A stretch of DNA of 64,000 bases from a virus. Under the pieces are notes generated by a model that made no database searches, was not told the origin of the DNA, and saw only the letters and a program-made list of their open reading frames with translations. The stretch is taken from the IMG/VR virus record IMGVR_UViG_3300024505_000434, positions 1 through 64,000 of that record, one strand, 5' to 3'. The position numbers were made by a program, and so were the translations under genes. Positions 14,468 through 33,234 of the stretch are shown one piece after another; the first letter of the stretch is position 1, and each line of letters begins with the position of its first letter.

Positions 14468-14499
14468 AATGTTTCTCCTTGTTATTATGTTTATTACTT

Positions 14500-14667
14500 T
14501 TAGCCAACTTGGCTGGGCTTTTCTGGCCGTGTAGTACAGAATTGACACTCTGGATCCTTGCACGGTTCTTCTAGCCACTTATTACACAACTCGCAAAAAT
14601 ACGCATCGTACTTGTTGCTATATTGTTTCTCACTTTCACAGACAGGACACTTATAACTTATGTCCAT
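14500..14667 (-). CDS. small zinc-ribbon protein
   Basis: 55 residues from ATG 14667, whose codons overlap the stop of the upstream gene, to TAA 14500. It has three cysteine pairs: CPVC (8-11), CELC (25-28) and CKDPECQFC (36-44), so it can bind one or two zinc ions. Such small ribbons often bind nucleic acid or bridge phage and host proteins. No specific family recognised. Confidence 0.65.
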   Translation of the reverse strand: MDISYKCPVCESEKQYSNKYDAYFCELCNKWLEEPCKDPECQFCTTRPEKPSQVG

Positions 14668-16190: not shown

Positions 16191-16192
16191 TT

Positions 16193-16480
16193 TCACTCCG
16201 GTATATATTGTCCAAAGCCGTTCTCTTGGAAGTGTGTGTATACGGCATCTTTATCTATTTCATCTAATGCTTTTACTTCTTGTGCAAATGTATTAATGTT
16301 AATAGTTCCGTTTGAACTTTTAGAACTTTTTAACATTTGGAGTATATCTGCTAAATGGCCTAATCTTTCCAATCCAACATCTACTTCTCCATCTTCAAAT
16401 AACTTGTATGCCCTTTCGGCATGGTCCGAGCAATACTCAAACATAGATGCTTCGAACTTCTGAACGTGTGCTTGTGACAT
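16193..16480 (-). CDS. unknown acidic helical protein
   Basis: 95 residues, acidic, predicted all-helical (FEASMFEYCSDHAERAYKLF). First gene after a sigma70-type promoter; it is translationally close to clpP and may regulate or pair with it. No family recognised. Confidence 0.6.
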   Translation of the reverse strand: MSQAHVQKFEASMFEYCSDHAERAYKLFEDGEVDVGLERLGHLADILQMLKSSKSSNGTININTFAQEVKALDEIDKDAVYTHFQENGFGQYIPE

Positions 16481-16586: not shown

Positions 16587-16868
16587 ATGGGTGATATATT
16601 CAAAATAATTGGTGATTTGGGTATGCCGGTAGCGGCGGCATTGGCAGGTGGATACTTTGTTTACCTAACAATCAAATTACTACTACAAGGTGTTTTGGGA
16701 AGTATCAAAGGTATGGCCGGTATTATTACTGCGTTAGACAATCGTGTAAAAACAATGAACCACGATGTTGTACGTATTGATACTATTGTGTCCAACGCAT
16801 TAGGTTTACGCCCTGACGTAGATCGTATTGCTAGAGCAGATGGTAAGAACGATGCTAGACGAGACTAA
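16587..16868 (+). CDS. membrane-anchored coiled protein A
   Basis: 93 residues with an N-terminal membrane segment (about 8-40) and a cytosolic or periplasmic helix ending NRVKTMNHDVVRIDTIV. Its layout and helix match the 125-residue protein at 17348, indicating duplicated genes. Holin-like or virion membrane proteins are both possible. GGAG-type site lies upstream. Confidence 0.6.
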   Translation: MGDIFKIIGDLGMPVAAALAGGYFVYLTIKLLLQGVLGSIKGMAGIITALDNRVKTMNHDVVRIDTIVSNALGLRPDVDRIARADGKNDARRD

Positions 16869-17022
16869 TACAAAATTACAAGATGCAATTATAACGTTGC
16901 ATGACATAGCCAGACTAATTGAACAAGAAGTTGGCCGAGGTAACCTTAGTGACGATATTAGAAACTGTGCTAATAGAGTCAATGTATTGATTAAGGAAAG
17001 AGTCGAAAATGCTGTATGTTGA
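16852..17022 (+). CDS. unknown 56-residue helical protein
   Basis: ATG at 16852 (MLDETNTKLQ), overlapping the end of protein A by 17 nt; a longer frame begins at 16828. Predicted amphipathic helices, acidic. Probably expressed by translational coupling. No family recognised. Confidence 0.5.
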   Translation: MLDETNTKLQDAIITLHDIARLIEQEVGRGNLSDDIRNCANRVNVLIKERVENAVC

Positions 17023-17206
17023 TTACAGTTGGGATTTAAATCCTAGCGGTATCATATTCGATGAAGAACTTGATATTGATAAGTTAGGTTGGAAGCACGG
17101 CGATTGCTTTAGAATTACCAACGTTAATGGTAAGGCAATGCTGGTTAAAATGCACCCAGTAGAGCAATTTGTAAAAGGATACCCAGTAAATGTTCAAGAA
17201 GAATAA
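17009..17206 (+). CDS. unknown 65-residue protein
   Basis: MLYVDYSWDLNPSGI...; predicted small beta protein resembling hypothetical proteins of T4-like environmental phages. Overlaps its neighbours on both sides, so it is part of the plus-strand operon 16587-18432. Confidence 0.55.
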   Translation: MLYVDYSWDLNPSGIIFDEELDIDKLGWKHGDCFRITNVNGKAMLVKMHPVEQFVKGYPVNVQEE

Positions 17207-17348
17207 ATGGCAGTTGTGGTATGATGCACAACCCCAACACATCAAAGATTGGATGGATCAGCCAAGAGCAATTTGGTATGACAGCGATATGTGGAAGGCT
17301 GGCATTACTGGATTAGTTGTTGGTTTAATAATAGGGATGATTATATAA
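17190..17348 (+). CDS. 52-residue membrane protein
   Basis: ATG 17190 overlaps the end of the previous gene; the stop TAA overlaps the next start as TAATG. A polar N-terminal half with many Trp/Asp residues and a C-terminal membrane segment (GLVVGLIIGMII). No family recognised. Confidence 0.6.
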   Translation: MFKKNKWQLWYDAQPQHIKDWMDQPRAIWYDSDMWKAGITGLVVGLIIGMII

Positions 17349-17725
17349 TGGATGTCGTAGAGTTAGTCAATAAGTATGGGTTTCCAATCGTTATGGCGGT
17401 TGGTATGGGTTTCATTATCAAATACGTTTGGGAATGGGCCACAAAAGAAGTTAAGCCAGTTATCAGCGATGCTAATACTGTGTTGATTGCTCTTATCGAC
17501 CGTATCCGTATGCTAGACAATGACTTGATTCGTCTTAACCAAAAAGTTAATACAGTCTTACACCTACGTGGTAAGATGATTGAATCGGATCGTGTTATGG
17601 AAACTGCACTTGTAGAAGCACAGGCTAACAAGAAGTTCCACGAAGCAATGGAAGAAGCAGACAAGATTGGCGCAAAGAAAGTTGACCCGGACGATAAAAA
17701 GACTGCGGCCGCTGGCGAGAGTTAA
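17348..17725 (+). CDS. membrane-anchored coiled protein B
   Basis: 125 residues from ATG 17348 (MDVVELVNKYGFP). An N-terminal membrane segment (about 10-28) is followed by a long helix with DRIRMLDNDLIRLNQKV, similar to protein A at 16587, then a charged tail. Paralogous pair; possible holin or envelope-associated virion protein. No family recognised. Confidence 0.6.
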   Translation: MDVVELVNKYGFPIVMAVGMGFIIKYVWEWATKEVKPVISDANTVLIALIDRIRMLDNDLIRLNQKVNTVLHLRGKMIESDRVMETALVEAQANKKFHEAMEEADKIGAKKVDPDDKKTAAAGES

Positions 17726-17727: not shown

Positions 17728-18432
17728 ATGTCAACAATTATAGCCACCTTGGTGATGGTTCAAATCACCATAGCCTGTGTTACCCTTTATCTTCATAGAG
17801 GACAAACACACAGAGCAGTAACATTCCATCCAGCAGTAAATCACTTCATGCGTTTTTGGCTTTGGCTTACAACAGGTATGGTTACCAAGCAATGGGTAGC
17901 AATACATCGCAAACATCATCAAGCCAGCGATACAGATTTAGATCCGCACAGTCCACAAGTTTACGGTATTAAAACTGTGCTATTCAAAGGCTGGAGTTTA
18001 TATCACTCTGCCAGTAAAGATACCGCAATGGTTGAAAAGTTAGGAGTAGGTACTCCTGATGATTGGCTAGAGCGTAATGTTTACACCCTACACAGCCGCC
18101 TTGGAATTCTCTTAATGTTAGTCATAGACTTATTGTTCTTTGGTCCTTGGGGTATTCTTGTGTGGGGCATTCAAATGATATGGATTCCATTCTGGGCCGC
18201 TGGTGTTATTAATGGACTGGCACATTGGTGGGGATATCGTAATACTGACACCAAAGACACTAGCCGTAACTTATGGCCTTGGGCTATTTGGATCGGTGGT
18301 GAGGAACTACATAACAATCATCATGCCGATGGGGCCAATGCTAGTTTCCGTCAACGTTGGTTTGAATTAGATATCGGTTGGATCTATATTAAGGTACTAC
18401 GCTTCTTTAACCTTGCACAGGTTAGGAATTAA
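17728..18432 (+). CDS. acyl-CoA/fatty-acid desaturase
   Basis: 234 residues with the three histidine boxes of membrane diiron desaturases: HRGQTH (23-28), HRKHH (60-64) and HNNHH (195-199), with hydrophobic segments between them. It resembles proteobacterial stearoyl-type delta-9 desaturases, somewhat shortened. It would introduce a double bond into membrane acyl chains, changing membrane fluidity during infection. It is the last gene of the plus-strand operon and converges with the peptidase gene (11-nt overlap at the ends). Desaturases are rare in phages. Confidence 0.88.
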   Translation: MSTIIATLVMVQITIACVTLYLHRGQTHRAVTFHPAVNHFMRFWLWLTTGMVTKQWVAIHRKHHQASDTDLDPHSPQVYGIKTVLFKGWSLYHSASKDTAMVEKLGVGTPDDWLERNVYTLHSRLGILLMLVIDLLFFGPWGILVWGIQMIWIPFWAAGVINGLAHWWGYRNTDTKDTSRNLWPWAIWIGGEELHNNHHADGANASFRQRWFELDIGWIYIKVLRFFNLAQVRN

Positions 18433-19171
18433 CAGCAATAAACTCTGCTTCAGGAATACGTGTCTTAGTATTCTTACTTCCTAGTACTACTACAATTCTG
18501 CGTCCTATTTCTGTATCCAACATCATTACTATGCAACCTCCACTGGCTCTTATGTAGCCAGTTTTGCTGACAATAAATTCATGACGCTTGCCAATAATTG
18601 GATTAGTATTATTAAAGATAAACCACTTTTTCTTTATCTTAATTTTAACCTGCGGTGTGCGTGATGCTTCAATAATCTCTGCGTAGTTCTTTGCCGCTAG
18701 AACTAGTTTAATTAAATCAGTGGCTGTGCTTACATTAAACACACTAAGCCCTGTAGGTTCGACATACTTTGTGTCGTGCATACCTAACAGATGTGCTTTA
18801 GTATTCATTGCTCTAACACAGGCATCCTTACCATTAGGATAGTATTGACACAGTAGATCAGCCGCTTTGTTGTCGCTGTGTACTAATGCTAGTTGTATTG
18901 TTTCGGCTCGGGTATACTTACCGATTTGTTCATCTAAGTTTTGATTAGCATCTAACACAACCATTGCCGTCATTAGTTTAGTAATGCTGGCAATACTACG
19001 CTGTTGATCTATGTTTTCGCTTTGAATAATTCTGCCGGATTCATCGGCCACGAGCCAGCTCTGAGCGGTGATAGACAGAGGTTTGGCAGTGGCGGCGCTT
19101 GTTTGCCCATGATGTAAAAAGGCAAAAAATACCAATATAGATATAACTCTACACATCTGTCTATTGTACAC
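18422..19171 (-). CDS. D-alanyl-D-alanine endopeptidase (PBP7 type)
   Basis: 249 residues with an N-terminal signal segment and the three motifs of S11 peptidases: SITK (nucleophile Ser and Lys), HSDN (SxN) and SKTG (KTG). Length and order match PBP7/PbpG, a periplasmic enzyme that cuts peptidoglycan cross-links. The phage version could remodel the wall at entry, at lysis, or to let surface fibres pass. It lies downstream of the cyclase gene on the same strand. Confidence 0.88.
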   Translation of the reverse strand: MYNRQMCRVISILVFFAFLHHGQTSAATAKPLSITAQSWLVADESGRIIQSENIDQQRSIASITKLMTAMVVLDANQNLDEQIGKYTRAETIQLALVHSDNKAADLLCQYYPNGKDACVRAMNTKAHLLGMHDTKYVEPTGLSVFNVSTATDLIKLVLAAKNYAEIIEASRTPQVKIKIKKKWFIFNNTNPIIGKRHEFIVSKTGYIRASGGCIVMMLDTEIGRRIVVVLGSKNTKTRIPEAEFIAVNS

Positions 19172-19192: not shown

Positions 19193-21244
19193 TTATTTTT
19201 CATGTGCTATGAATTCACCATTCCAATTATCTGGAAGGTTCTGTTCTTTCATAAACTCGCAACGTTCAATCCAGATTTTGTAGTACTTGTCCATTTGTCC
19301 ACCAAAGTTGCCTTTTAGTTTTTTACACATAGCGGCTGCTTCGTCGAACTTCTTTTGTTTATACAAGGCATGCATCAACTCGTGCTGTACTTTATCTTTA
19401 CTGTAATCTTCACCTTTGGTTCTTAATGCTGTATAGATTAAGTCTGCTACAGTTTTGCCTTTAGGTTGTAAGTTATCTAGCATTAGATAGAAGAAGTCAT
19501 CTTTAGTACGGTTGTAAGTTTCAGCACCGATGATACATAACACGCCATAGGCCTTACAACGTGCTTCTAAACGAGCGGCGGTTGAAACCATGTCACCTAA
19601 GATGTCGTAACTATGTCTGTCAGTTGATCCCATCTCACCAATAAAGCCAATACCTGAGTTACAACCCCAACCCATTGCGGCTGGTGGTAAGCCTTGTGCT
19701 TCCATTAGTTTAGTATACTCATCAACAGCATCTAACATCTGTAAACCAACAGCAACAATAGTACGGGCATGATTAGGATCTTCAATCGGAGCACCGTGTA
19801 TGTGCATACTTGCGTCACCTACATACTTTATGACCATACCCTTGTTGTCCATGATAGGCTGACTAATAGCATCCATGTAACCGTTCATATACTTGCCTAA
19901 TCCAGCAACATCATCACCGTAGTGTTCTCCAATGGGTGTAAAGCCACGCAAGTCACTGAACATAACGGATACGTCTTTACGCACACCACGCTTGATTAGG
20001 TCTGGATCTTTTTGTAGCATTTCTACTACTTCCTTACTACAGTATCCAGCGAACTGTTTCTTAATTGCCTGTTTCTGTAAAAACTCGCTTATAAACTTAA
20101 CGCCATAACAATGAAGAGCAACGATAATAAGGCCAAACGCGATCGCAGTCGCGTCTCCCAAGACGAGCCAATTATTGAAAGCGTAGATAGTACCAGGAAC
20201 GATGGCACCAACAATAACCACAGTAGCACCAATGCCAACATAAGTCCACCTCGATAAGAAAATTAATAATATGCCAAGTGATACTAATGCTAAAATTTCA
20301 ACCCCGTCGGCATAGTCGGGACGTTGAATAACAATGCCGTTAACCATTGTACCAATTACTGCGGCCTGCACTTCGTGAGGAAATACAGCACCTTTGCTTG
20401 TCGGTAACGGATTACTAATACCAGCGGCAGTAGGACCTACAATAACGACGGCGCCACCTAAATCTTTTGGAAGTTTAACAGCACTAACGCTATGAGCTTC
20501 TTGGCTCCAATCGATCCAAATTCTTCCTAAACTATCTGTAGCAATAGGACCAAACTTTGGAATACGCATTTTCTCAACGCCGCCTTCAAAAAGTTTTACT
20601 TGGAAGGTAGAGTCTCCTGCGGCGACTCTAAGTGTCTCTAAACTCAATGCTGGATATAATTTGCCGTCTACAGTAACAATTAACGGCATGCGGCGATTAA
20701 CACCATCTACTTCTGGAAGTGTTCCTGTAATGCCAACACCTGCGGCATTTTGTTCTAGTTGAGGAACGTTGGCGATTAGTCCCGGGTATTGAATAATTTG
20801 ATCTAGATGTTCTGGACCTAGTACAGCCGATCCTGGAACACGTGGTGTATTCTTTGTTTTCTGTGCTGGCGCACTTCCTAGTACTACAGGGAACTCTTTT
20901 AGAGTTTGTCCTAGCGCACCATCTCCACCAGTACGATCTGTCTCTGGCATAAGAACATTAAGTACAACAAGTCCTGCATTTCTTTGGTATAGTTCCTTCA
21001 CAAGTTTAGCATATTCTGCTCTTGGTAAGGGCCACTGACCATATTTGTCTAACGTGGCTTCGTCGATATTTACAGTAACTATGTTGTTAACTGTAACTTC
21101 TTTACTTGTAATTAATGTGTCAAAATAACGTAGTCTTACGCTTTCAACAAATGTAGGATCTGCAACTCTGACACCAACAACTAGTGCTAGAGTTAGTAAA
21201 GCAGTCCATGGACTTACTAGTATTTTTTTGAATTGTATTTTCAT
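19193..21244 (-). CDS. CHASE2-domain nucleotidyl cyclase
   Basis: 683 residues: an N-terminal membrane segment (about 12-28), an extracytoplasmic CHASE2 sensor domain (about 30-300), three membrane segments (about 315-385) and a class III adenylate/guanylate cyclase domain (about 420-600). Both metal-binding aspartates are present (Asp431 in MFSDLRGF, Asp477 in KYVGDAS), so it should be active. It would make cAMP or a related nucleotide in response to a periplasmic signal. In bacteria CHASE2 cyclases often sit beside FecR-domain proteins, as here. Highly unusual in a phage. Confidence 0.9.
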   Translation of the reverse strand: MKIQFKKILVSPWTALLTLALVVGVRVADPTFVESVRLRYFDTLITSKEVTVNNIVTVNIDEATLDKYGQWPLPRAEYAKLVKELYQRNAGLVVLNVLMPETDRTGGDGALGQTLKEFPVVLGSAPAQKTKNTPRVPGSAVLGPEHLDQIIQYPGLIANVPQLEQNAAGVGITGTLPEVDGVNRRMPLIVTVDGKLYPALSLETLRVAAGDSTFQVKLFEGGVEKMRIPKFGPIATDSLGRIWIDWSQEAHSVSAVKLPKDLGGAVVIVGPTAAGISNPLPTSKGAVFPHEVQAAVIGTMVNGIVIQRPDYADGVEILALVSLGILLIFLSRWTYVGIGATVVIVGAIVPGTIYAFNNWLVLGDATAIAFGLIIVALHCYGVKFISEFLQKQAIKKQFAGYCSKEVVEMLQKDPDLIKRGVRKDVSVMFSDLRGFTPIGEHYGDDVAGLGKYMNGYMDAISQPIMDNKGMVIKYVGDASMHIHGAPIEDPNHARTIVAVGLQMLDAVDEYTKLMEAQGLPPAAMGWGCNSGIGFIGEMGSTDRHSYDILGDMVSTAARLEARCKAYGVLCIIGAETYNRTKDDFFYLMLDNLQPKGKTVADLIYTALRTKGEDYSKDKVQHELMHALYKQKKFDEAAAMCKKLKGNFGGQMDKYYKIWIERCEFMKEQNLPDNWNGEFIAHEK

Positions 21245-21777
21245 TTTTTAAATCCTGGCTTTGGTAAGTGGTTGCGGCCGTAACTAATTCTACTGCCTAT
21301 AATTTGTTCTAATGCTGTATGTAAGGCTTGTCCTGATAAATGTTTACGCAACCATTTTTCTGCTAAGTTGTTAATAATCTTTTCATTAGCGTGTGCAAAG
21401 CCGCCTTTACTTTTAGCGTGTACATAAGCGTGATATGCTTCGTGGGCCGCAACAGCAACGTCTCGTGCCGCGGTGCTGTCTAGATTTGGTAAGTTGATAC
21501 TGCCAACGCCGTCGCCTGTATCCCTAAACATTGGATCTCCGCTACTCTGGTAGACATAATACATTCCAGGACCTAATTCGTCATCATCGTCAGTTACTCT
21601 ATCTCTACCTAGAATATTTCTAACTACATCATATGCTGTCCAAAGCGTGGCTGCAGGTTCTCTGCTTAATTTTGTAGTTGGAAGCATTATTTTATCTTCA
21701 GGATCGAAGTCACCATATCTTGCTTTTAAATCGGCGTCACTTGCTTCTGCTTCTTTTATAAATTCTTTTGCTCTCAT
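21241..21777 (-). CDS. capsid-targeted zinc metallopeptidase-like protein
   Basis: 178 residues from ATG 21777 (the frame extends upstream, but MRAKEF is the conserved start). The N-terminus MRAKEFIKEAEA resembles the T4 capsid-targeting sequence and contains the prohead-protease site I-K-E before Ala. A HEAYH motif (HExxH) marks a zinc peptidase active site. The protein is probably packaged in the capsid, processed and injected with DNA; the target is unknown. Start overlaps the lipoprotein stop as ATGA. Confidence 0.7.
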   Translation of the reverse strand: MRAKEFIKEAEASDADLKARYGDFDPEDKIMLPTTKLSREPAATLWTAYDVVRNILGRDRVTDDDDELGPGMYYVYQSSGDPMFRDTGDGVGSINLPNLDSTAARDVAVAAHEAYHAYVHAKSKGGFAHANEKIINNLAEKWLRKHLSGQALHTALEQIIGSRISYGRNHLPKPGFKK

Positions 21778-21917
21778 GATCTTGGTGCCGCGCCGTTTCG
21801 AGTAGCAGGATCCCATGAGTGGCAACCCTTGGGTCGTCCGTCTTTGTCGCAAAATGCTATTCCGGCGCAGCCTGCTAAGGTTGTAATAATTGCTAATATT
21901 AAGATGTTTTTCAGCAT
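21774..21917 (-). CDS. small lipoprotein of the curli-like operon
   Basis: 47 residues, ATG 21917 to TGA 21774. The signal sequence ends in lipobox LAGC (Cys17), followed by a short mature part with two more cysteines. It follows the PA14-curlin gene and may help anchor or assemble the fibre at the outer membrane. No family recognised. Confidence 0.6.
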   Translation of the reverse strand: MLKNILILAIITTLAGCAGIAFCDKDGRPKGCHSWDPATRNGAAPRS

Positions 21918-21935
21918 CCAATATTTAGTTAGATT

Positions 21936-24329
21936 TTATTGGCGAACAACTGTGCTACAACCCGCTGGATTTGTACAACTTTGAATGATGCTAAATGATT
22001 TGCCGCCTGTTTGTTGCAGGTCAACACTGGCTGGGCCACCTGCGTTAGTTACATCAATAACTGCTCTGTTAGCAGTATTTCCTGTTTGTGTCACTAGTGC
22101 TGAGTTGTTATTTCCTGTTAGTGTAATATCAGCGAAATGGCCAGCACCGCCAGACTGTGTAGTGTTTACAGTATTAATATCGCCTGTAACTTTACTGAAC
22201 AATATGTGATTACCGGTTTGTGTATGATTTACAGTATTACCATTTCCTTGTATTTTAGTTTCAGCATAATTTGAACCACTAGCATTTGACTGATTAGTAG
22301 TTATGTTATTGCCCCACCCAGGCACTTCTTGCTTTAAGTAGTTACTGCCAGTTTGAGTATTATTAACAATATTGTTGTTTCCTTCTAAGGTAAATTCGAT
22401 TTTGTTCTTAGTACCACTTTGTGTAATAGTTACATTATTGTTAGTACCGTATGTTTGTGTGATGTACAATTCGTTATTGTAGTTTTGTGTACCGTTGTTC
22501 CAAGTATTAATTCTAGTTTGTTTAACATCTATATCTGCTGGAGGAACGTATGAGCCACCGCTACCTATAACTTGATCACCAGGCGCATTTGTTTGTGTAA
22601 TTGTTCCACCTTCAACTACTGGTCCTAATAAAACTGTTGTACCCGACACGTCAACTACTGCGCTGTTAGAATAAACAAATCCACTAGTGTCAATTGTATT
22701 TGTTTCAGTAATCCACCCTGTAGTAAATGCAGAGTTAGGTACGTTCATACGGCCTGCACCGTAGTCCCATTGAAAACGTAGTCCATAGCCGCCGGTGTCG
22801 TTCCAGTACCATGCTTCAAAATTATAAGTCTGTCCTGCTACTATGTCTATCCAGCCAGACGCTGTATAGCCACCTATACTCTGAAGTTGGAATGTAGATC
22901 TATCGTTGATAACTGTTTGTCCGTTTACACTCATAACAAATCCGTCATCGCTGTTGCTATAGAAGTATAATCTATATACAGTACCTGCAGGATAATTTTG
23001 TGTCGTCGGAGCAGTAATCGTTCCGTTGAATCTAACTAAGGTACCAGTGTCCATATTTGGAAAACTGCCGTTAGTCGGAACATAAACTCCGTTACTAGTT
23101 GTACCAATACTAACAGGCTGTCCACCAGGTGGCATATCAGGTACACGATATGGCCCTAACCAGTTTTTAATACAACCTAACCAACCGCAGTTATAAGTGT
23201 AAGGATCGAATTTGTAGACTTTATAGTTTAATCCCTGCTGTATGTTTTGTGTTGTAGTTGTTGCTGTGCCGTTTGCTTCTATGGTGCTGCCATTAACGCC
23301 GGTTGTAGTAACTGTATTAATTGGTGTTGTAGTTGTTGTCAGAACACCGTTTACAATTTTTGTAGTTACTACGTTAGACGCAACCTTAGTTTGATATACT
23401 GCTTCAGTACCATTTGTACTTGTGCTAGTTCCGTCGCTGTAAGTTGTTGTAGTTACAGGTGTGCGATAAACAGTAGTTGTATTACCATTAACCACAGTTC
23501 TAGTTGTATAAGTTACACTAGTTCCTGTTACTGTAGGAGTCGGAGCAGGAGCCGCACCGGCAGTTGCGCCCGTGCCAGCATTGGTCACTGACATTGTGTT
23601 ATTATATCCACCAGCAGTACCACTAGTAGTACCACCAGTAGCACTAGGGCCGCCACCGTTAGCGTTAGCAACTAAGCCAACTGTACTCGAACCAGGCACT
23701 CCATCGCTGTTAACGATACAGGCATTTGATCCGCCCCATGCACCTTGACAAGCACCGAACCCTGGATTTGATACCCAACCTTGTGCTGTTATATTATTAT
23801 AAGGCCCAAACTCCGGGTTATACAATAAGTTGCCGCCGCCATTAAGTTGGAATGTAGGAGCACGATACCAAGGACCATAATCACCTGCCCAGTAACTTCC
23901 ATCAATACCGTACATACTGACTGTGGCATAGGCTACTTGGCTTGCTTGTGCCGCAGTAAGCGTTGCACTGATAGTTACTGTAGTCCAAGGTACCGCAGTA
24001 TCAATACAAGGATTACCACACACAGCATTTGGGTTTGGTAAGTTAGCAGAGTTAGTTGAGTTTACGCTAGTGATTAATCCACCACTGCTGTTATAGAACT
24101 GTATCTTTACGTTAGCCGTATCACTTTGTCCTGCACGGCCGCCGCCGTTGTGTGCTAGTACACTCATTGTAAATGTACCGCCTTGTTGCATATTACTATC
24201 AAACACTACTTGTTGACTAATTGTAGTAGTAACATAAGCAGTAGCAATAGCATTATAAGTCACAGCCTGACTATGTGCGCTAATGCACACAGTTAAAAAC
24301 ACAAGGAACTGTAATAAACGTTTTATCAT
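21936..24329 (-). CDS. secreted PA14-curlin adhesin
   Basis: 797 residues: a signal peptide (ending SAHSQA), a beta-rich N-terminal region, a Thr/Gly/Val-rich linker with many TTT runs, a PA14-like domain (about 390-540, with the YFYSNSDDGFVMSVNG core) and a C-terminal array of curlin-like repeats (N-x-Q-T-G type, about 600-780). PA14 domains bind sugars; curlin repeats form or join amyloid fibres. It would be exported through CsgG and attach a carbohydrate-binding head to the fibre. Start overlaps the FecR gene stop. Confidence 0.8.
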   Translation of the reverse strand: MIKRLLQFLVFLTVCISAHSQAVTYNAIATAYVTTTISQQVVFDSNMQQGGTFTMSVLAHNGGGRAGQSDTANVKIQFYNSSGGLITSVNSTNSANLPNPNAVCGNPCIDTAVPWTTVTISATLTAAQASQVAYATVSMYGIDGSYWAGDYGPWYRAPTFQLNGGGNLLYNPEFGPYNNITAQGWVSNPGFGACQGAWGGSNACIVNSDGVPGSSTVGLVANANGGGPSATGGTTSGTAGGYNNTMSVTNAGTGATAGAAPAPTPTVTGTSVTYTTRTVVNGNTTTVYRTPVTTTTYSDGTSTSTNGTEAVYQTKVASNVVTTKIVNGVLTTTTTPINTVTTTGVNGSTIEANGTATTTTQNIQQGLNYKVYKFDPYTYNCGWLGCIKNWLGPYRVPDMPPGGQPVSIGTTSNGVYVPTNGSFPNMDTGTLVRFNGTITAPTTQNYPAGTVYRLYFYSNSDDGFVMSVNGQTVINDRSTFQLQSIGGYTASGWIDIVAGQTYNFEAWYWNDTGGYGLRFQWDYGAGRMNVPNSAFTTGWITETNTIDTSGFVYSNSAVVDVSGTTVLLGPVVEGGTITQTNAPGDQVIGSGGSYVPPADIDVKQTRINTWNNGTQNYNNELYITQTYGTNNNVTITQSGTKNKIEFTLEGNNNIVNNTQTGSNYLKQEVPGWGNNITTNQSNASGSNYAETKIQGNGNTVNHTQTGNHILFSKVTGDINTVNTTQSGGAGHFADITLTGNNNSALVTQTGNTANRAVIDVTNAGGPASVDLQQTGGKSFSIIQSCTNPAGCSTVVRQ

Positions 24330-25432
24330 TTTTGTATCAAGGTAATAATAGTATTACCTCCCTGATTTATTCTGTTCTTAAATTCTAAATTGCCCTGTGT
24401 TTGTAATATTGTTGAGTTTTGTGTGAGTGGTGTTTTAACACATTGTATGTCAGCACCGTTGTCGCGACAGAGTTCAACACTCATATCATCTTTGTAGGCT
24501 ATAATGCCACTGGACTTTTTATAGTCTGGTAGCACAGGATCTACAGGATCTAAAAACTTTTGATCCAGTATGTTTCCCACAATGTCGAATAAGTTAGCAA
24601 GGAAATCATTAGACAAAAAGTTTTTGGCTAACTTATCTTCATAAATCATATTGGCCTGCATATCTAAATAATTCTCCAAACCTTTCTCTTTTAAAAAGTC
24701 AAAGTCTAAAGCATTAAATGTTCTCTGTTGTTCTTGTTGTGCTTGTTTGACTTCGCGCGGAGGACTGACAATTAACATATTGCCAATGGCCATTTCACTT
24801 AGATTTAATACTTTAGGCGGTGTAGGAGGTTGTGTTCTACTTTGAACTTTAGTTACTTGGAAGGGTTGATTTAGTATTACAGTACCTACATCATTGCTAA
24901 CTTCAATACTGCCAGTCTTACAGTTAGTTTCAATATCTCTAACTGAGCGTGTTGGTCTATCATTAGGACAACTAGGTAAAAGAATAATTGTACTTTCGCC
25001 TAGCTCGTCTACAGTGGCAGTAAAGTCAGTACCGCGTACAGCAACAGTAGCACTAGGAGTAGAAAGGGCCACATTCTGAGGCGAATTCTTAGCAATCTGT
25101 CCAGACGCATAACGAACTGTGCCAAGAGCAATCTTAGCACCTAGTTTACCCGCCTTACTTTTTGGATCATAAACGAAATCATCAATTACAAGTTTAGAAT
25201 TTTCATTGACTTGGACTTTAGTATCGTCCTCAAATGTTATCCCCACCTTGCCCTGCTGGGTCTTGATCGCATCGTTCATTTCCACTCCAGTCCCTTTCGA
25301 CGCCGTTAGTGTCGAATTCTGTCTCTGGATAGTCGGGGGTGTATTGATTTGTTCCGTTACTTTGCCTATCGCGGCGTAGGCCAACGATGTACTCAGCAAC
25401 GGAACGCATAATACTACCATCCATAATTTCAT
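24326..25432 (-). CDS. secreted FecR-domain protein
   Basis: 368 residues: signal peptide (cleaved near YAA), a FecR domain (about 45-165; GVEMNDAIKTQQGKVGITF and TPSATVAVRGTDF) and a helical C-terminal half with four cysteines near the end. FecR domains of this periplasmic type are often found with CHASE2 cyclases and surface-fibre loci. It begins 9 nt downstream of the curlin gene, so it is expressed with the fibre genes and may sense or control fibre export. Confidence 0.85.
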   Translation of the reverse strand: MKLWMVVLCVPLLSTSLAYAAIGKVTEQINTPPTIQRQNSTLTASKGTGVEMNDAIKTQQGKVGITFEDDTKVQVNENSKLVIDDFVYDPKSKAGKLGAKIALGTVRYASGQIAKNSPQNVALSTPSATVAVRGTDFTATVDELGESTIILLPSCPNDRPTRSVRDIETNCKTGSIEVSNDVGTVILNQPFQVTKVQSRTQPPTPPKVLNLSEMAIGNMLIVSPPREVKQAQQEQQRTFNALDFDFLKEKGLENYLDMQANMIYEDKLAKNFLSNDFLANLFDIVGNILDQKFLDPVDPVLPDYKKSSGIIAYKDDMSVELCRDNGADIQCVKTPLTQNSTILQTQGNLEFKNRINQGGNTIITLIQK

Positions 25433-25441
25433 GGAACCCTC

Positions 25442-26416
25442 TTAGTTTTTCTGTAAAATAGTGTAAGTGTTGCCACTTCCTGATATAGCAAGATTAGTTA
25501 GATTGCTAACTGATCCTTGTTGTGTAATACCAATAGTATTAGTACTACCTGTTACAGATAACGTTGTGCTGTGTCCAGTAGCAGATCCACCTGTTTGTGC
25601 AAGTGTAATGCCATTGCTACCGCCTGTTACAGTAATACTAGCATAGTGATCGTACGCACCAGTTTGTGTTACGTCTGTAGTATTACCAGAACCTGTGATG
25701 TTGATAATTGCTTGAGCACCAGTTACACCGTATGCACTCTGTGTTACAGATGTAGTGTTAGTTGCACCAACAGTTGTTAGACTAACTTGACCTTTGTTTC
25801 CGGTCATGTTAAGTGTAGTTGCGTTGCCGCCGCCACCTGTTTGACTAACAGTTGCTACAGTTTCATCAGCGTTGATTGTACCTGTAAATGTGTTGTTAGC
25901 ACCACCACTAGTTCCAACAGTTAATTGGTTACTTGTACCAGTCATGTTAAGTGTTGTAGTTGCACTACCGCCACTTTGAACAAAACTAACAACGTTACCA
26001 CTGGCTGTGCCTGTACCATTATTGTTAATATTAATGTAACCTGTGTTTCCACCACCACTTACTTGGTAATTTAAATTCACACCAATATTAGCATAACCTT
26101 GTACAGTACCACCTTGTGTTGAGTTAACACCTAACGCCAATACGTTAGTTGCTCCTGTTTGCTCAATGTTGATAGTCTGTGCGGCACCAGTTAGTTTAGC
26201 AGGATCAGTTGTTCCACCTGCTGTGCCATTTAATAATATACCCTTTACTTTGTTTCCTGCTCCGTCTTGAGTCATAGTAATAGTACTATTATCGCCGGAC
26301 TGATCAATGTAAATGCTATTGTCAGCCGCATAACCCAATGTTGTCATTGCAGACAACACCAGAATTGTGAGTAATTTTCTCGACAACCCACCAGCGCCTG
26401 TGATTCTCTTATGCAT
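25442..26416 (-). CDS. curlin-repeat amyloid subunit (CsgA/CsgB-like)
   Basis: 324 residues: a basic N-terminus and signal peptide (cleaved near GYAA), then about ten curlin-type repeats of the pattern Q-x-G-x-x-N...(I/V)-x-Q, for example IDQSGDNSTITMTQDG and ITQQGS. CsgA and CsgB build the curli amyloid fibre on the cell surface. At 324 residues it is twice the length of E. coli CsgA. The preceding 83-nt leader contains TGGTCTTAGACCA and lacks a clear ribosome-binding site, suggesting regulated translation. Confidence 0.88.
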   Translation of the reverse strand: MHKRITGAGGLSRKLLTILVLSAMTTLGYAADNSIYIDQSGDNSTITMTQDGAGNKVKGILLNGTAGGTTDPAKLTGAAQTINIEQTGATNVLALGVNSTQGGTVQGYANIGVNLNYQVSGGGNTGYININNNGTGTASGNVVSFVQSGGSATTTLNMTGTSNQLTVGTSGGANNTFTGTINADETVATVSQTGGGGNATTLNMTGNKGQVSLTTVGATNTTSVTQSAYGVTGAQAIINITGSGNTTDVTQTGAYDHYASITVTGGSNGITLAQTGGSATGHSTTLSVTGSTNTIGITQQGSVSNLTNLAISGSGNTYTILQKN

Positions 26417-26499
26417 CGTTTTTACAGAATTAGGTTATCTTCCCTAACTCGCTCCTTGGTCTAAGACCATTAAAAAATTTAAAGTGCTACCTCTCTTTC

Positions 26500-27669
26500 T
26501 TATTTTTGTTTGTTAACTACTTCTTTTTTAACAAACCCTTTACGCTTCTCTACGTCCTGCACTTGTACCCAATCACCTTCGCTCCCGGTTATGAATACTC
26601 GTGTATTTGGCTTAAACTGCCAAGTCCTTTGACTCTTTTCGTTTGGCTCCTTGTATATAAACTGAGCATCCTTTAGAATTGCTTCTGTAGGTAACTTCTC
26701 TAGTTCTTTTGCGGCGGTACTGGGTACGGCCTTGGTTTCGGTTTCGGATTTGGTTTGTGATTGAACCACGACATCTTTCTTCTCCTCTACTTTAACTTCT
26801 TCTTTAATCTCAGAGCTAATTACCGGCTGGGCCGCTGGTGCTGGTACAGGTGCCTTGGCCGCTGGTGCGGATTCTGGTTTAAACTCCCATACACCTTTAC
26901 GTTGTCCTTCCTTAATTAACTCTACGACTGCCATTTCAATAGTTGCCTTTGTAGCGTAAGTGCCAGGTTCATTGATAGTTAAACCTGCTTCTGCTTCAAA
27001 TGCCTTAGTGCCTGCGTCAAAGAATTTTAATGCAGATACGCTGTCTGCTGAACTTAAGATAGTCTTTTGTACTGTCACTGTGGCTAATACCTTACCAGTG
27101 TTTACGCTAACTGCTCGTAAACTTACTGTTACTGTATCAGTGCTCCACTGTGTATTTTTGCCTATGCCAAATATACGTTGACCTACACCACCGCTGGTAG
27201 TGCTTTGATCGTAGCCTACTATTCCGCCTTCTACAATAATTCCAGCGAATTGCATTGGTAGCAATGGTTTAGCATCTTTACCTTCATATGCTTCGCGCAT
27301 TTGCCTAATAATTAAACGTTCTTTAGTTAGGTTATCAATGCCCACACGTTCTACAACGTCGAACCATTGACCGCGTCCTACATTTTGTAATGCCTGTATT
27401 AAGAATGTTTCTGCACCCTGTGTCACTGCTGTTGATAAACTGGCAATGTTTGCCTGCGGTCTACGTTGACCTGTTTTATCAGTAAAACTATAAACGGCCA
27501 CGCTTAGTGGTCTTCCAGCGATTGGACTAGGTATTGTATCAAATTCTTTCTTAACATTAGTCATTTGCCCTGTAACTTCAGGACTCTTGTCTAGTACTCC
27601 AGTTGTCTGCATAACAGCACAACCTGAAAGCATAGTTAAAACTGCTAGGGATAGTATTGTCTTTTTCAT
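26500..27669 (-). CDS. csgG: CsgG-like curli secretion channel with SH3 tail
   Basis: 389 residues: lipoprotein signal with lipobox LSGC (Cys17), a CsgG domain (about 45-270, with VAVYSFTDKTGQ and the long TTSGGVG...LRAVSVNTGKV strand region), a Pro/Ala/Lys linker and a C-terminal SH3-like domain (about 325-385). CsgG forms the nonameric outer-membrane pore that exports curlin. E. coli CsgG has 277 residues and no SH3 domain, so the tail is an addition that might bind peptidoglycan. Confidence 0.9.
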   Translation of the reverse strand: MKKTILSLAVLTMLSGCAVMQTTGVLDKSPEVTGQMTNVKKEFDTIPSPIAGRPLSVAVYSFTDKTGQRRPQANIASLSTAVTQGAETFLIQALQNVGRGQWFDVVERVGIDNLTKERLIIRQMREAYEGKDAKPLLPMQFAGIIVEGGIVGYDQSTTSGGVGQRIFGIGKNTQWSTDTVTVSLRAVSVNTGKVLATVTVQKTILSSADSVSALKFFDAGTKAFEAEAGLTINEPGTYATKATIEMAVVELIKEGQRKGVWEFKPESAPAAKAPVPAPAAQPVISSEIKEEVKVEEKKDVVVQSQTKSETETKAVPSTAAKELEKLPTEAILKDAQFIYKEPNEKSQRTWQFKPNTRVFITGSEGDWVQVQDVEKRKGFVKKEVVNKQK

Positions 27670-27672
27670 GTC

Positions 27673-28212
27673 TTAGTTCCCCGGCATTTGGAATGAACTT
27701 AATGGAACATACACACAACTCATTCCAGTGTCTGTGCATGATGCTGTACTTGGGTTAGTGGCTGTAGGATCTGCAATCTTTAACATAATGCAGTATCCGT
27801 AGGCTGTTGAACAGTTAGCATCGTTAGCACTACTAACTCTGCCCCAACTAATATAGTTGCCCTGGAAGTCAATGTTGCCAGAACAGTTTGTGTTGCTACT
27901 TGCTGTACAGTTGTTATTGGCAAACATAGCGGTTGCTACGTTCTGACTAATCTGTGCATAGATACGTGATTCTAAGTTACTAACAAACTTAGCAAGGTTG
28001 GTGTTTTTCTTATCTGCGGCTGCTTTGTCAATTTCAGCCTGTAGTTTATCTGCACGTTCTTTCTGACGTGTGCGCTCTTGATTCTCAATGGTTAATACAT
28101 GACTGCTGTAACCTACGCCGTTAAAGGCAGGACTCTTAAAGGTGTAATCACCTAAAGGTGCTGCCGATACAATCATAGGCAATAATGCTATAAGTGATAA
28201 TAGTTTTTTCAT
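27673..28212 (-). CDS. csgF: CsgF-like curli assembly factor
   Basis: 179 residues with a signal peptide (ending VSAA). After it comes YTFKSPAFNGVGYSSHVL, which matches the CsgF N-terminus that plugs into the CsgG pore, then a charged helix and a C-terminal region with ISWGR and several cysteines. CsgF anchors the nucleator to CsgG. It starts the operon csgF-csgG-curlin-FecR-PA14/curlin, with csgG 3 nt downstream. CsgE was not seen. Confidence 0.78.
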   Translation of the reverse strand: MKKLLSLIALLPMIVSAAPLGDYTFKSPAFNGVGYSSHVLTIENQERTRQKERADKLQAEIDKAAADKKNTNLAKFVSNLESRIYAQISQNVATAMFANNNCTASSNTNCSGNIDFQGNYISWGRVSSANDANCSTAYGYCIMLKIADPTATNPSTASCTDTGMSCVYVPLSSFQMPGN

Positions 28213-28279: not shown

Positions 28280-28305
28280 AAAAAAGGGCTCCGAAGAGCC
28301 CTTTT
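28280..28305 (-). terminator. rho-independent terminator
   Basis: AAAAGGGCTC-TTCG-GAGCCCTTTT followed by a T-run on the minus strand, directly behind the BI-1 gene. It separates BI-1 from the curli-like operon. Confidence 0.85.
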
Positions 28306-28326
28306 ATTAATTAACATACTAGTTAA

Positions 28327-29016
28327 TTATTTTCTATCACCAAACAACTGTAGTAAATTAATGAACAGATTAATAAAATCCATATATAGTGTTAATGCAC
28401 CTGTTACTTCGGTTGCAGGATCAGAGTCGATTGAAACCATTTCTCGTATTTGCTGTGTATCGTAAGCAGTTAATCCTAGAAAGATAATAATTGCTAATGC
28501 ACTGATAACCATGGCCATTACACTACTACCAATAAAGATGTTAACAATACTGGCAATAACAATAGCAATCAATCCAATGAACATAAACTGTCCAAGACTT
28601 TCCAAACTACGTTTTGTAAAGTATCCATAGAAGCTCATTGTACCAAACAAGATCGCCGCACCCATAAACGCACTAACAATACTGCCCATGGTAAAGATAG
28701 CAAAAATTGTAGCAAAGCTCAAACCCATTAATGCCGCAAAACCATGTAAGCATAGTTGGGCGACTTGTTTACTAGGGTTATTAGATAGTACCATGCTAAC
28801 ACCAAAGATAGCAACCAGTGGTGCAAAAATTACAATCCACTTCATTACACCTGTAAAGAAGAATTGTAACAATTCTGGGCTAGTACCTACAAAGTAACTA
28901 ACAATCATAGACACAAGAACTGCTAGGCTCATGTGTCCATAGACACGACCCATTGCTTCATTGATCTGTGCGGCTGAACGGTAAATTCCAGTACCTGTGT
29001 AACTTGCACCAAACAT
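28327..29016 (-). CDS. Bax-inhibitor-1 family membrane protein
   Basis: 229 residues with seven predicted membrane segments and the BI-1/YbhL-type C-terminus (LTAYDTQQIREMV). The E. coli relative YccA binds and slows the membrane protease FtsH; others conduct calcium. A phage copy could protect new membrane proteins from FtsH; the SPFH lipoprotein at 6974 belongs to the other known class of FtsH partners. It is preceded by tRNA-Thr, with which it shares a promoter. Confidence 0.88.
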   Translation of the reverse strand: MFGASYTGTGIYRSAAQINEAMGRVYGHMSLAVLVSMIVSYFVGTSPELLQFFFTGVMKWIVIFAPLVAIFGVSMVLSNNPSKQVAQLCLHGFAALMGLSFATIFAIFTMGSIVSAFMGAAILFGTMSFYGYFTKRSLESLGQFMFIGLIAIVIASIVNIFIGSSVMAMVISALAIIIFLGLTAYDTQQIREMVSIDSDPATEVTGALTLYMDFINLFINLLQLFGDRK

Positions 29017-29038
29017 AAATTTCTCCTGAAGTTAAAAA

Positions 29039-29114
29039 TGGTGCCCCTTGTCCGACTCGAACAGACCACCTACTGATTACAAATCAGTTGCTCTACCAGA
29101 TGAGCTAAAGGGGC
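29039..29114 (-). tRNA. tRNA-Thr (TGT), second copy
   Basis: Minus-strand cloverleaf: acceptor GCCCCTT/AAGGGGC fully paired, anticodon stem ACTGA/TCAGT with loop TTTGTAA (anticodon TGT), T-arm GTCTG-TTCGAGT-CGGAC, encoded CCA. Sequence differs from the copy at 240, so it was acquired separately. Confidence 0.93.
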
Positions 29115-29123
29115 AATGTTTTT

Positions 29124-29153
29124 ATTATATATGAACTTCGTAAGATTTGTCAA
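29124..29153 (-). promoter_or_regulatory. sigma70-type promoter
   Basis: Minus strand TTGACA (29148-29153), 18-bp spacer, TATAAT (29124-29129), 10 bp upstream of tRNA-Thr and in front of the BI-1 gene. Confidence 0.7.
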
Positions 29154-31646: not shown

Positions 31647-32327
31647 TTAGCGAATTTCTGGGAACAAACATTCCTGTATGAATACCCTAACATCCTCTTC
31701 ATCTAAGCCTAAACTAGCCATTACACGTGGAGTATGTGGGTTACATTTTTGATTGATTGCGTAGTAGTTCTGCGCTTCTGTGGTATTTTCAGTAGTATTA
31801 TTAGTTTCTGCTACAGTTTCTAAGTAATGTGCCAGTGTATCTTTAGCCATTTCTATAATCTGCGCTAGTTCTTCTTCGCTCTGCACATTACCTGCGGCTA
31901 CCATGCTAGGGCTGAATATGTTGGTAGCCCATTCTGGTAGTTGGCGTTCTCTGCGCCATTCGAGTCGTTTAACATAATCAGCAAACCATTCCATCATAGG
32001 ATGATTAGAATCTCCTGCTTTGCTGTAATCATGAAAACAGCCAGTAATCTTATTCTTGCCTGCTACAACGTCAAAGCCGTAAATTGGTGCTGGATTGTGT
32101 AAGTGTGGGAAGATGCAACAATGCATCATCCAGAGTCCTTTGGTTTCTCTAGCATCCACAACATCAACGTGAGCACGGCGATAAGACCCACTGGTCCAAA
32201 CACGATTAACCCAACCAGGCTGATTAAAGCGATCCATGCCCGGTTCAAAGATTTCTGTTCCTGTTTCATTAAAACTGCTTTCTAAAAGATGCTGAACTTC
32301 AATCAGCGTGTCCCATACTTTACTCAT
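31647..32327 (-). CDS. ferredoxin-dependent bilin reductase (PcyX/PcyA-like)
   Basis: 226 residues of the HY2/PcyA family. The motif YGFDVVAGKNKITGCF matches the conserved core, and His69 and Asp86 stand 17 residues apart, exactly as the catalytic His88/Asp105 of PcyA. These enzymes reduce biliverdin with ferredoxin to phycobilins. Its start overlaps the heme oxygenase stop by 8 nt. Oceanic phages of non-cyanobacterial hosts carry a PcyX that makes phycoerythrobilin next to a heme oxygenase; this is probably a relative. Product and purpose in this host are unknown. Confidence 0.82.
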   Translation of the reverse strand: MSKVWDTLIEVQHLLESSFNETGTEIFEPGMDRFNQPGWVNRVWTSGSYRRAHVDVVDARETKGLWMMHCCIFPHLHNPAPIYGFDVVAGKNKITGCFHDYSKAGDSNHPMMEWFADYVKRLEWRRERQLPEWATNIFSPSMVAAGNVQSEEELAQIIEMAKDTLAHYLETVAETNNTTENTTEAQNYYAINQKCNPHTPRVMASLGLDEEDVRVFIQECLFPEIR

Positions 32328-32874
32328 AGTGTGGAACTATATCCATCATTTGATCAAAGAATTTTGCCGCAAAATCAAAACATACTCTTGCTTCATCTGC
32401 TAGACTATCATCTAGTTTTGCACGAATTGCTTCTTTGATCTTTTCAGGTTCGTCTCCAAACTGATAGTATTTGCCACTGCCTGGAACTCTTTTAGCAATC
32501 ATTTGACCGCCTGATAAATCTCCCATGTGACGTACATAAATGTGTGCCATCAACTTTTTAGGATCATCTTTGATGCTGAGAATATATTTGATATATTCAT
32601 CCACTACCGGACACATTTTTGGTTCTTCAGGATTGTCTGAGCCCCATAGTTCTATGAAGTCAGATAAAATTGCAGGTGCTCTGCGTATCTCTGGTAGACC
32701 GGAAAGTAATCCATGTGGCATAGCACAGACTTCTAAAATCTCATACATTGGATGTTGATTTTTTAGATATGTTGCGTATAGTTTAGGATTTACATTTCCT
32801 GAAAATAAGACTTTAACAAAAGGCCTTGTTTCTGCTCTGCGATGTTGCTCGTGTGTAAGTTCTTTTAGACTCAT
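32320..32874 (-). CDS. ho1: heme oxygenase
   Basis: 184 residues of the biliverdin-producing heme oxygenase family: an N-terminal helix with the proximal-histidine region (LTHEQHRRAE) and the distal helix signature HMGDLSGGQMI. It opens heme to biliverdin, iron and CO, feeding the bilin reductase encoded immediately downstream. The start overlaps clpS by 4 nt. Iron release may also serve the phage iron-sulfur genes. Confidence 0.92.
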   Translation of the reverse strand: MSLKELTHEQHRRAETRPFVKVLFSGNVNPKLYATYLKNQHPMYEILEVCAMPHGLLSGLPEIRRAPAILSDFIELWGSDNPEEPKMCPVVDEYIKYILSIKDDPKKLMAHIYVRHMGDLSGGQMIAKRVPGSGKYYQFGDEPEKIKEAIRAKLDDSLADEARVCFDFAAKFFDQMMDIVPHYE

Positions 32875-33179
32875 TCGGAATCCACTTTAATTTGTAATGG
32901 GAAGCCTGCTTGACGTGCAAGGTGTGTTGCCTCAACACCTTTCTGCTCGGCGATCTCGTAGGTATAAACACCTACTACTGCTGAACCTTCATTGTGTACA
33001 GTTAATGTAATCTGTTCAGCATTTTCTCTGGAGTGCTTAAACACAGTCATTAGTAATTCAATAACAAAGTCGATTGGAGTTTTGTTATCATTTAAAAACA
33101 ATACCTTGTAACGCTTAGGTTCAGTGATATCGATTTTAATCTTTTCGTCAATTTTAATTTCGGTGTCTACAGTTGGCAT
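32871..33179 (-). CDS. clpS: ClpS adaptor
   Basis: 102 residues with the ClpS core (YKVLFLNDNKTPIDFVIELL ... AVVGVYTYEIAE). ClpS delivers N-degron substrates to ClpA and inhibits delivery of SsrA-tagged ones. A phage ClpS would redirect host proteolysis during infection, in line with the phage tmRNA and ClpP. It is first in an operon with ho1, the bilin reductase and two packaged proteins, and has an AATAAATA late-like motif 23 bp upstream. Confidence 0.92.
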   Translation of the reverse strand: MPTVDTEIKIDEKIKIDITEPKRYKVLFLNDNKTPIDFVIELLMTVFKHSRENAEQITLTVHNEGSAVVGVYTYEIAEQKGVEATHLARQAGFPLQIKVDSE

Positions 33180-33201
33180 ATTGGCCCTCCATTCTTAATG
33201 G

Positions 33202-33209
33202 TATTTATT
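33202..33209 (-). promoter_or_regulatory. late promoter-like motif of the clpS-ho1 operon
   Basis: AATAAATA on the minus strand, one change from TATAAATA, 23 bp before clpS and just after a GGGGGC-TCCG-GCCCCC hairpin that follows hsp20. Confidence 0.4.
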
Positions 33210-33234
33210 AGTGGGGGCCGGAGCCCCCGATTTT

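Follow-up and report, generated by a model that had tools for sequence, protein, structure and literature searches.

Curli-like gene sets have been described in several pelagiphages. An operon of this kind was reported in pelagimyophages, with 'sibling capture' as its proposed role (PMC7029224), and a related module was found in nine podoviral pelagiphages, its subunits also occurring in myoviral ones (PMC9599517); for phage Melnitz, lysis control was proposed (PMC9004378). All three papers are cited here from excerpts. Podoviral pelagiphages of the HTVC023P type encode CsgF, CsgG, CsgA/B, and FecR, often together with a second CsgA/B and an adenylate cyclase, and are described there as having no CsgE; superinfection defence and capture or import were suggested as functions, and pelagiphage curli genes were found expressed in Pacific metatranscriptomes (PMC9599517). 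According to the same excerpts, the hosts of the cultured relatives are without such surface-fibre genes (PMC9004378, PMC9599517). Here we analyse a module of this known kind in a 64,000-nucleotide stretch of viral DNA (the window), which represents positions 1 to 64,000 of the 67,826-base IMG/VR contig IMGVR_UViG_3300024505_000434. The module occupies the minus strand down to position 18422 and includes a gene pair on the plus strand at 16587-17725 (Table 1).

Comparison with described systems

The minus-strand run at 21774-28212 consists, as a preliminary description had proposed, of genes for CsgF, CsgG with an SH3 domain, a curlin-repeat protein, a FecR-domain protein, a second curlin-repeat protein with a PA14 domain, and a lipoprotein, on the evidence of Pfam, Foldseek, and open reading frames (ORFs). 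With a CsgG pore, an adjoining CsgF, and exported curlin-repeat subunits (export signals were assigned by eye), the gene set is, as judged from its sequence, a curli or type VIII system, the fibre itself being predicted. The accompanying claim that no phage had been described with such a set does not hold: Pelagibacter phage HTVC008M and Methylophilales phage Melnitz carry the core order CsgF-CsgG-curlin-FecR-curlin-cyclase, and the excerpts of PMC7029224, PMC9599517, and PMC9004378, one of them published in 2020 and two in 2022, discuss it. The CsgG and FecR proteins of these two isolates are 44-47% and 39-45% identical to those of the window, respectively, and the same pair of small membrane proteins is present; in HTVC008M, FecR and the second curlin protein are annotated as hypothetical and were recognised by profile. 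The SH3 tail on the window's CsgG, its 47-aa lipoprotein, and its S11 carboxypeptidase were not seen in the fetched stretches of both isolates. In the window the core order is interrupted by the lipoprotein gene and a 178-aa gene between the second curlin gene and the cyclase. The membrane pair is encoded past the cyclase and by the opposite strand, whereas it is located just ahead of csgF in HTVC008M and Melnitz, and the 212-kb contig that matches the window exceeds the 141-147 kb of the isolates. The likeness to the HTVC023P type, which extends to CsgF, CsgG, CsgA/B, and FecR, is drawn from its description. With E. coli curli (CsgBAC-CsgDEFG) the window shares homologues of CsgG and CsgF and the curlin repeats; it differs in that CsgC and CsgE were not found, and in the additional FecR, CHASE2 cyclase, membrane pair, and PA14-bearing subunit.

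The arrangement recurs in related viruses. Three more IMG/VR contigs of 43, 105, and 212 kb (L002, L003, and L004), which have different sample numbers, encode a CsgG of 100% identity in the same gene order, with protein matches at 100%, the cyclase of L004 being split by a frameshift. Altogether 63 viral loci, these three and 60 further ones, encode relatives of the window CsgG. Joined by the window's own stretch they form the main set of 64 loci, in which CsgG is present by choice; near-identical contigs are counted separately in all tallies. CsgF occurs in all 64 loci, curlin-type ORFs in 58, FecR in 52, and SH3 tails in 17, and the loci without curlin (6) or without FecR (12) terminate ahead of the respective place (by eye). 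This conservation bears directly on the possibility of misassembly or bacterial contamination. Curli genes are typical of bacteria, the record is a 67.8-kb metagenome contig, and a T4-type capsid or portal gene was found neither there nor in the matching 212-kb contig; the identical order in L002, L003, and L004, the 60 further loci, and the isolates with the module nevertheless refute this explanation in practice, so that the assembly chimerism considered beforehand is not borne out. A T4-type portal is encoded by seven of 13 contigs (the window's record, the 212-kb match, and eleven relatives); these seven measure 215 to 364 kb, and all of them carry CsgG. A T4-type capsid gene is present in three of nine contigs. 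The window's record and the 212-kb contig may be fragments. The phage nature of the window rests on its other phage-type genes, which include matches to rIIA, tail fibre, and NrdA families, and on its relatives. On this evidence from gene content the module is real and well conserved within a large-phage lineage that has several T4-like members.

Table 1. Features of the curli-type module and its surroundings in the window
Feature	Position	Strand	Basis
CsgF-like pore partner, 179 aa	27673..28212	-	Pfam CsgF 1.8e-7
CsgG outer-membrane pore lipoprotein with SH3 domain, 389 aa	26500..27669	-	Pfam CsgG 1.2e-46, SH3_4 1e-7
Curlin-repeat fibre subunit, 324 aa	25442..26416	-	Curlin_rpt 5.1e-4, repeat pattern
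Secreted FecR-domain protein, 368 aa	24326..25432	-	Pfam FecR 3e-9, AlphaFold2 model matches
Second curlin-repeat protein, N-terminal beta region and PA14, candidate adhesin, 797 aa	21936..24329	-	Curlin_rpt 2.2e-4, Foldseek PA14
Lipoprotein, 47 aa	21774..21917	-	ORF with LAGC lipobox
178-aa protein, starts MRAKEF	21241..21777	-	Pfam Zn-peptidase match 0.36, very weak
CHASE2 adenylate/guanylate cyclase, 683 aa	19193..21244	-	Pfam CHASE2 7.2e-37, Guanylate_cyc 7.9e-14
D-alanyl-D-alanine carboxypeptidase S11, optional member	18422..19171	-	Pfam Peptidase_S11 1.6e-40
Small single-pass membrane protein A, 93 aa	16587..16868	+	phrog_18771 1.1e-29
Small single-pass membrane protein B, 125 aa when read from the start given	17348..17725	+	phrog_18771 9e-29
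Terminator-like hairpin, 10 pairs, T-rich tail	28282..28305	-	Between preceding Bax inhibitor-1 (BI-1) gene and csgF

A bacterial counterpart was found in a metagenome-assembled genome (MAG) of Hyphomonas sp. TMED17 (L067), where a CsgF-CsgG-curlin-FecR-CHASE2 cyclase run lies on a 705-kb contig among bacterial-looking neighbours (by eye). It differs from the window in that the run has a single curlin gene and the membrane pair is lacking from the genome searched. The abstract of PMC9599517 states that the cyclase is not found inside bacterial type VIII secretion operons, a statement which the Hyphomonas locus qualifies. Among the best 80 of 194 bacterial CsgG relatives, FecR and the cyclase otherwise occur together only in L128, where the pair adjoins them on a 20-kb contig from a Saprospirales MAG. 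This contig and L068, a 7-kb contig of a Pirellulales MAG that ends past the curlin gene and whose MAG contains copies of the pair, are apparently phage contigs binned with bacteria. In a tree of 70 of 181 CsgG sequences (80% clustering, aligned stretches of 180 aa or more) the phage rows, L068, L128, and Hyphomonas form one group of 37 with a support of 100/99, set against 33 bacterial rows; within this group, which includes HTVC008M and Melnitz, L067 is the only clearly chromosomal row. A phage group without the Hyphomonas row is disfavoured (p-AU, approximately unbiased test, 0.026), and branches are long. Hyphomonas pairs with L128 on long branches, and transfer may have run in either direction.

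Pore, fibre subunits, and FecR protein

A profile built from 16 phage CsgG sequences covers residues 1-265 of the 285 residues of solved CsgG with an E value of 5e-68. In the window protein a proline-rich linker, seen by eye, and the SH3_4 domain at residues 334-385 were recognised, and the lipobox reads LSGC, with G16 and C17 invariant in the 16 sequences. In CsgF, F25, P28, and G32 are invariant among 18 phage sequences and F30 is nearly so; comparison with solved CsgF structures gave an E value of only 0.24 and covered the N-terminal part. The best match of the CsgF profile in the PDB was the repeat protein SAKe6BE-L1 (2.5e-7), which was disregarded as no single stretch of it is significant. 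CsgE and CsgC, noted in the preliminary description as the sole parts lacking, were each found in none of 12 records (the window's record, eight related viral contigs, HTVC008M, Melnitz, and one bacterium), and the E. coli control was positive. A curli phenotype is possible without CsgE (PMC7029224).

Profile searches confirmed CsgG, CsgF, FecR, and the second set of curlin repeats, left the first set just under the cut-off, and returned no PA14 match. The first curlin protein scored 20.4 bits against a Pfam cut-off of 20.7, and the second slightly exceeded its own; these scores are marginal. The pattern G-x(1-2)-N-x5-Q, on the other hand, occurs six times in each protein, against shuffle means of 0.69 and 0.55, and none of 2000 shuffles reached six in either case. 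The first protein has five distinct repeats, two of its six matches overlapping; in the second, all six lie in the C-terminal 197 residues and residues 21-600 have none. The matches lie 21-25 residues apart, and by their sequence pattern the curlin repeats are genuine. In eight homologues of the second protein, one of them from HTVC008M, the repeat columns and Cys784/Cys790 are invariant. Its PA14 domain has no Pfam match at E<=1. In structure comparison, however, PA14 domains of an RTX adhesin, which bind sugar, top the Foldseek list (E value 1.3e-6, template modelling score by target 0.55), in line with the preliminary assignment. Because the underlying AlphaFold model is weak (mean predicted local distance difference test, pLDDT, 55.7), this match counts as support rather than proof. 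The PA14 region of the window was found in seven of the 64 loci, three of them near-identical contigs, and its profile also matches the second curlin protein of HTVC008M.

The FecR protein begins with a signal-like sequence, has no visible cytoplasmic part (both by eye), and ends in a conserved beta region; FecR is its sole Pfam domain above the cut-off. The AlphaFold2 (AF2) models were made from 16 rows (A2) and 7 rows (A5). That of FecR (pLDDT 70.9) matches the cell-surface signalling domain of PupR with Z 15.7 and a root-mean-square deviation (rmsd) of 2.5 over 138 residues, and the cell-surface anchoring domain 5ix9 with Z 6.9 and an rmsd of 2.3 over 73 residues, this Z being under the tool's safe level. 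Only PupR-type domains and this one anchoring domain stood out, and the FecR profile matched nothing among PDB sequences. Bacterial relatives point both ways. In the class of the Hyphomonas MAG, 30 of 385 sampled genomes have a FecR match at 1e-24; among the matches listed, 33 of 44 lie in open frames of at least 500 aa (maximum 6913 aa) and, in the fetched loci, near the frame start, which fits expectation for an adhesin anchor. In the order of Hyphomonas (398 genomes), 30 have a match at 1e-15, located in stand-alone frames of 152-353 aa; in 10 of the 30 fetched stretches, Hyphomonas included, a match to the module's cyclase profile adjoins. FecR and the cyclase are thus, by gene neighbourhood, a bacterial duo in its own right. 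In PMC9599517 FecR is seen as an iron-linked regulator. It may instead be a surface anchor or a fibre-linked structural protein, and this role is preferred over sensing because fibre genes flank FecR on either side. The tail of the protein, for which AF2 gives six regular strands at residues 310-367, ends in a conserved G-G-N-T...Q stretch. A curlin-like nature of this tail was considered and is not claimed: curlin profiles came near noise (best E value 0.1), hhalign probabilities were 0.5-2%, and the strict repeat pattern was not found in it; one hhalign profile scored 13.3, against a maximum of 12.9 among 50 column shuffles.

Membrane protein pair, accessory genes, and surroundings

Proteins A and B are paralogues with one main hydrophobic segment each. 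Neither has a Pfam match above the cut-off, and no holin or kinase domain was found in them; both belong to phrog_18771, annotated as 'unknown function', and protein B matches the holin family phrog_4898 weakly (E value 0.0066, 20 residues). With 93 and about 125 residues, neither protein has the length of a histidine kinase. In podoviral pelagiphages one 'histidine kinase', or in some cases two, was reported ahead of csgF (PMC9599517), and 'two hypothetical proteins' of matching size appear in PMC7029224; from position and size we infer that both designations refer to this pair, which earlier papers have probably named 'histidine kinase' or CsgA/B-like. The pair sits immediately ahead of csgF in HTVC008M and Melnitz; in the window, where it lies past the cyclase, the gene directly before csgF encodes BI-1, with a hairpin between them, and no 'histidine kinase' gene is found at that place.

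The pair and the module are closely associated. At least one pair member lies inside the fetched stretch of 39 of the 63 viral loci. Among contigs of at least 40 kb chosen by CsgG, 27 of 31 have the pair, with two matches apiece, and the four without it (L021, L049, L054, and L057) terminate at the module or shortly past it. Conversely, choice by protein A gave 19 contigs with a length of 100 kb or more; four of these (L212, L229, L250, and L263) had already been fetched by CsgG, and 13 of the other 15 encode CsgG. One exception (L214) terminates about 1 kb past the pair and the other (L252) about 8 kb past its cyclase, CsgG lying about 10 kb past it in the relative L257 (positions by hand). 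At least 583 relatives of protein A were confirmed. In 75 of the 80 loci examined the gene is present twice, and 69 of them encode one or more of CsgF, CsgG, curlin, FecR, and cyclase; in the other 11, no more than about 2.7 kb of contig is left past the pair on the usual module side. Six of 50,697 annotated phage records encode protein A, and the same six match the phage FecR; as Melnitz accounts for four of them, each a genome, and HTVC008M for the remaining two accessions, they represent two phages in effect. Ten further phage records encode CsgG-like proteins, namely a 1,499-base record labelled 'Salmonella phage' (38.5% identity) and nine records of Caulobacter and Brevundimonas phages (below 30%); these nine look like other CsgG relatives.

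Protein A is also the best conserved of the seven module genes compared. In the 28 of 60 loci (L005-L064) that have all six genes, median identities to the window are 89% for protein A, 73% for B, 67% for CsgG, 56% for the cyclase, 54% for FecR, 50% for CsgF, and 42% for the first curlin protein, so that the last two are the most variable; protein A exceeds CsgG in 22 of the 28. Against the two isolates the gap is narrower (51-56% for protein A, 45-47% for CsgG). The cyclase at 56% does not fit a simple rule by which inside proteins are fixed and outside ones variable.

The cyclase is found near the module in relatives and immediately downstream in HTVC008M and Melnitz; a full-length copy (>300 aa) is present in 38 of the 64 loci by hand count, the copies of L029 and L055 being encoded by the other strand. 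When ten proteins were submitted to PADLOC, the cyclase alone matched, to Pycsar cyclases (best 1.4e-13); it was not filed as a defence gene. In 17 of the 64 loci a stand-alone protein upstream of csgF, about 95-135 aa in length, is a homologue of the last 110 residues of the cyclase (L055 at 9133-9483, L015, L018, L019, L020, L022, L024, L025, L028, L029, L033, L035, L036, L042, L044, L047, and L049). The L055 sequence had no match in annotated phages. This protein is possibly a regulator of the cyclase.

Homologues of the 47-aa lipoprotein occupy an equivalent place in the contigs of L006/L229, L009, and L225. Other small lipoprotein-like ORFs, found by pattern match, lie past FecR and ahead of the cyclase or the stretch end (L021:16116, L023:10414, L027:8728, L034:10548, and L038:15203); one of them is proline-rich and might be spanin-like. 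The 178-aa protein has matches in 7 and the S11 carboxypeptidase in 14 of the 64 loci. The region contains nine terminator-like hairpins against 7.8 expected, that at 28282..28305 having a fold z of -1.66; the T4 late promoter TATAAATA occurs five times in the window against 5.6 expected, with none at csgF, and 28 sigma-70-like promoters were observed against 27.5 expected. Directly upstream of the module, at 28282-29153, are the BI-1 family gene and a tRNA-Thr, then the hairpin; a perfect sigma-70-type hexamer pair precedes them, such patterns being at chance frequency in the region.

Elsewhere in the window, a heme oxygenase gene stands beside a match to phrog_7278, a family annotated as ferredoxin oxidoreductase (31647-32874), which we take to be possibly a bilin reductase. 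Pfam recognised IscU-like and IscA-like genes for iron-sulphur assembly as well as ClpS, HSP20, and ClpP at 41218-41922, 32871-33681, and 15633-16196, and a second IscA-like gene and DnaK by sequence appearance at 40914-41234 and 33748-35613. Four proteins, with minus-strand starts at 21777, 30718, 31623, and 58674, share the N-terminus MRAKEF, presumably reminiscent of the capsid-targeting N-termini of T4. A Histone H1-like Hc1 protein is encoded at 14267-14578 (1.6e-20). The tRNA at 6688-6761 with the anticodon CTA, called tRNA-Pyl by ARAGORN, might be an amber suppressor; TAG is the stop codon of 3 of 62 ORFs of at least 100 aa. A permuted tmRNA at 12473-12915 gives a score with the betaproteobacterial tmRNA family too, which hints at the host, and Melnitz has a two-piece tmRNA too (PMC9004378).

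Putative function

The reading we favour, with a probability of about 0.62, is a phage-borne type VIII (curli) module by which infected cells would secrete PA14-decorated fibres via CsgG-CsgF without CsgE. The exported proteins would cross the inner membrane by their Sec signals (assigned by eye), and CsgG and CsgF would form an outer-membrane pore during infection, linked to the peptidoglycan by the SH3 tail of CsgG. Outside the cell the first curlin protein would polymerise as amyloid, and the second would enter the fibre via its repeats and display the PA14 sugar-binding domain, while the FecR protein, with a domain similar to the anchors of adhesins, would keep the fibre on the surface. 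Secretion would proceed without CsgE, and the membrane pair and the CHASE2 cyclase would act on the inner-membrane side in sensing or timing. The likeliest gain would be that coated cells adhere to neighbours or particles or exclude other phages; whether the benefit lies in adhesion or aggregation, in keeping other phages out, or in the timing of lysis is a guess. The functions put forward in the preliminary description keep their place as proposals; superinfection defence and aggregation ('sibling capture') had already been printed as such and are not novel.

Several observations weigh against this reading. The constriction residues of E. coli CsgG, which we take to be Y51, N55, and F56, are only partly retained in the phage alignment (by eye), and CsgE, the channel cap in E. 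coli, was not found in the 12 records searched. The marginal Pfam scores of the curlin repeats and the weak model behind the PA14 match belong here as well. Gene order varies, with two curlin genes ahead of FecR in L010, L011, L022, L024, and L025, and the second curlin gene is not present in L058, L060, and L061. The Melnitz authors did not find csgA or csgB, according to the excerpts (PMC9004378); the deposited Melnitz record annotates two curlin-repeat proteins. They also remark that infected cells showed no clumping, which counts against aggregation under those conditions, and this remark is all that a literature search for experimental tests of an effect on infected cells returned.

A tentative and clearly less probable variant is a reworked device, in which the duplicated membrane protein and the cyclase would couple the state of the fibre or pore to the cell and replace CsgE-type gating or time lysis, FecR being the structural anchor of the PA14 fibre; among annotated phages the duplicated membrane protein has so far been seen only with the module. 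It is unlikely that CsgG-CsgF serves to time lysis, either as a gated pore of the outer membrane or in the manner of a pinholin. In this scheme the pair would supply holin and antiholin, and the S11 carboxypeptidase and the lipoproteins would be partners at the wall and the outer membrane. Lysis control has been proposed in print for CsgG-CsgF (PMC9004378), the partner roles being added here, and the constant company of the pair, the weak holin match of protein B, the S11 genes, and the small lipoproteins that several loci have close to the module would suit it. However, Pfam gives no holin family for the pair, which in the window is on the opposite strand, and two curlin proteins, PA14, and an anchor-like FecR would be useless to a bare pore, yet they are retained; the core order in isolates, subunits included, argues against a pore-only device. 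More doubtful still is an uptake pore, proposed in PMC7029224 and PMC9599517, in which CsgG open without CsgE would admit larger nutrients or cofactors and FecR would be an iron-linked regulator. The missing CsgE, the PupR match of the FecR domain, and the stand-alone, cyclase-adjoining FecR genes in the order of Hyphomonas fit such a signalling role, whereas the signal-like start of the phage FecR, its lack of a visible cytoplasmic part, and the position of class-level FecR domains near the start of long frames do not, and the curlin and PA14 proteins would be left unexplained.

For the phages, the fibre-secreting module favoured here represents about 10 kb of surface-fibre genes, from which the carrier should gain. 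The comparison narrows the question of what this gain is: the subunits are present, FecR may be structural, a bacterial FecR-cyclase locus exists, and a gene pair is linked to the module. While the module is of a known kind, its consistent partner pair merits attention, with relatives in hundreds of viral contigs and the module at its side in nearly every contig checked.

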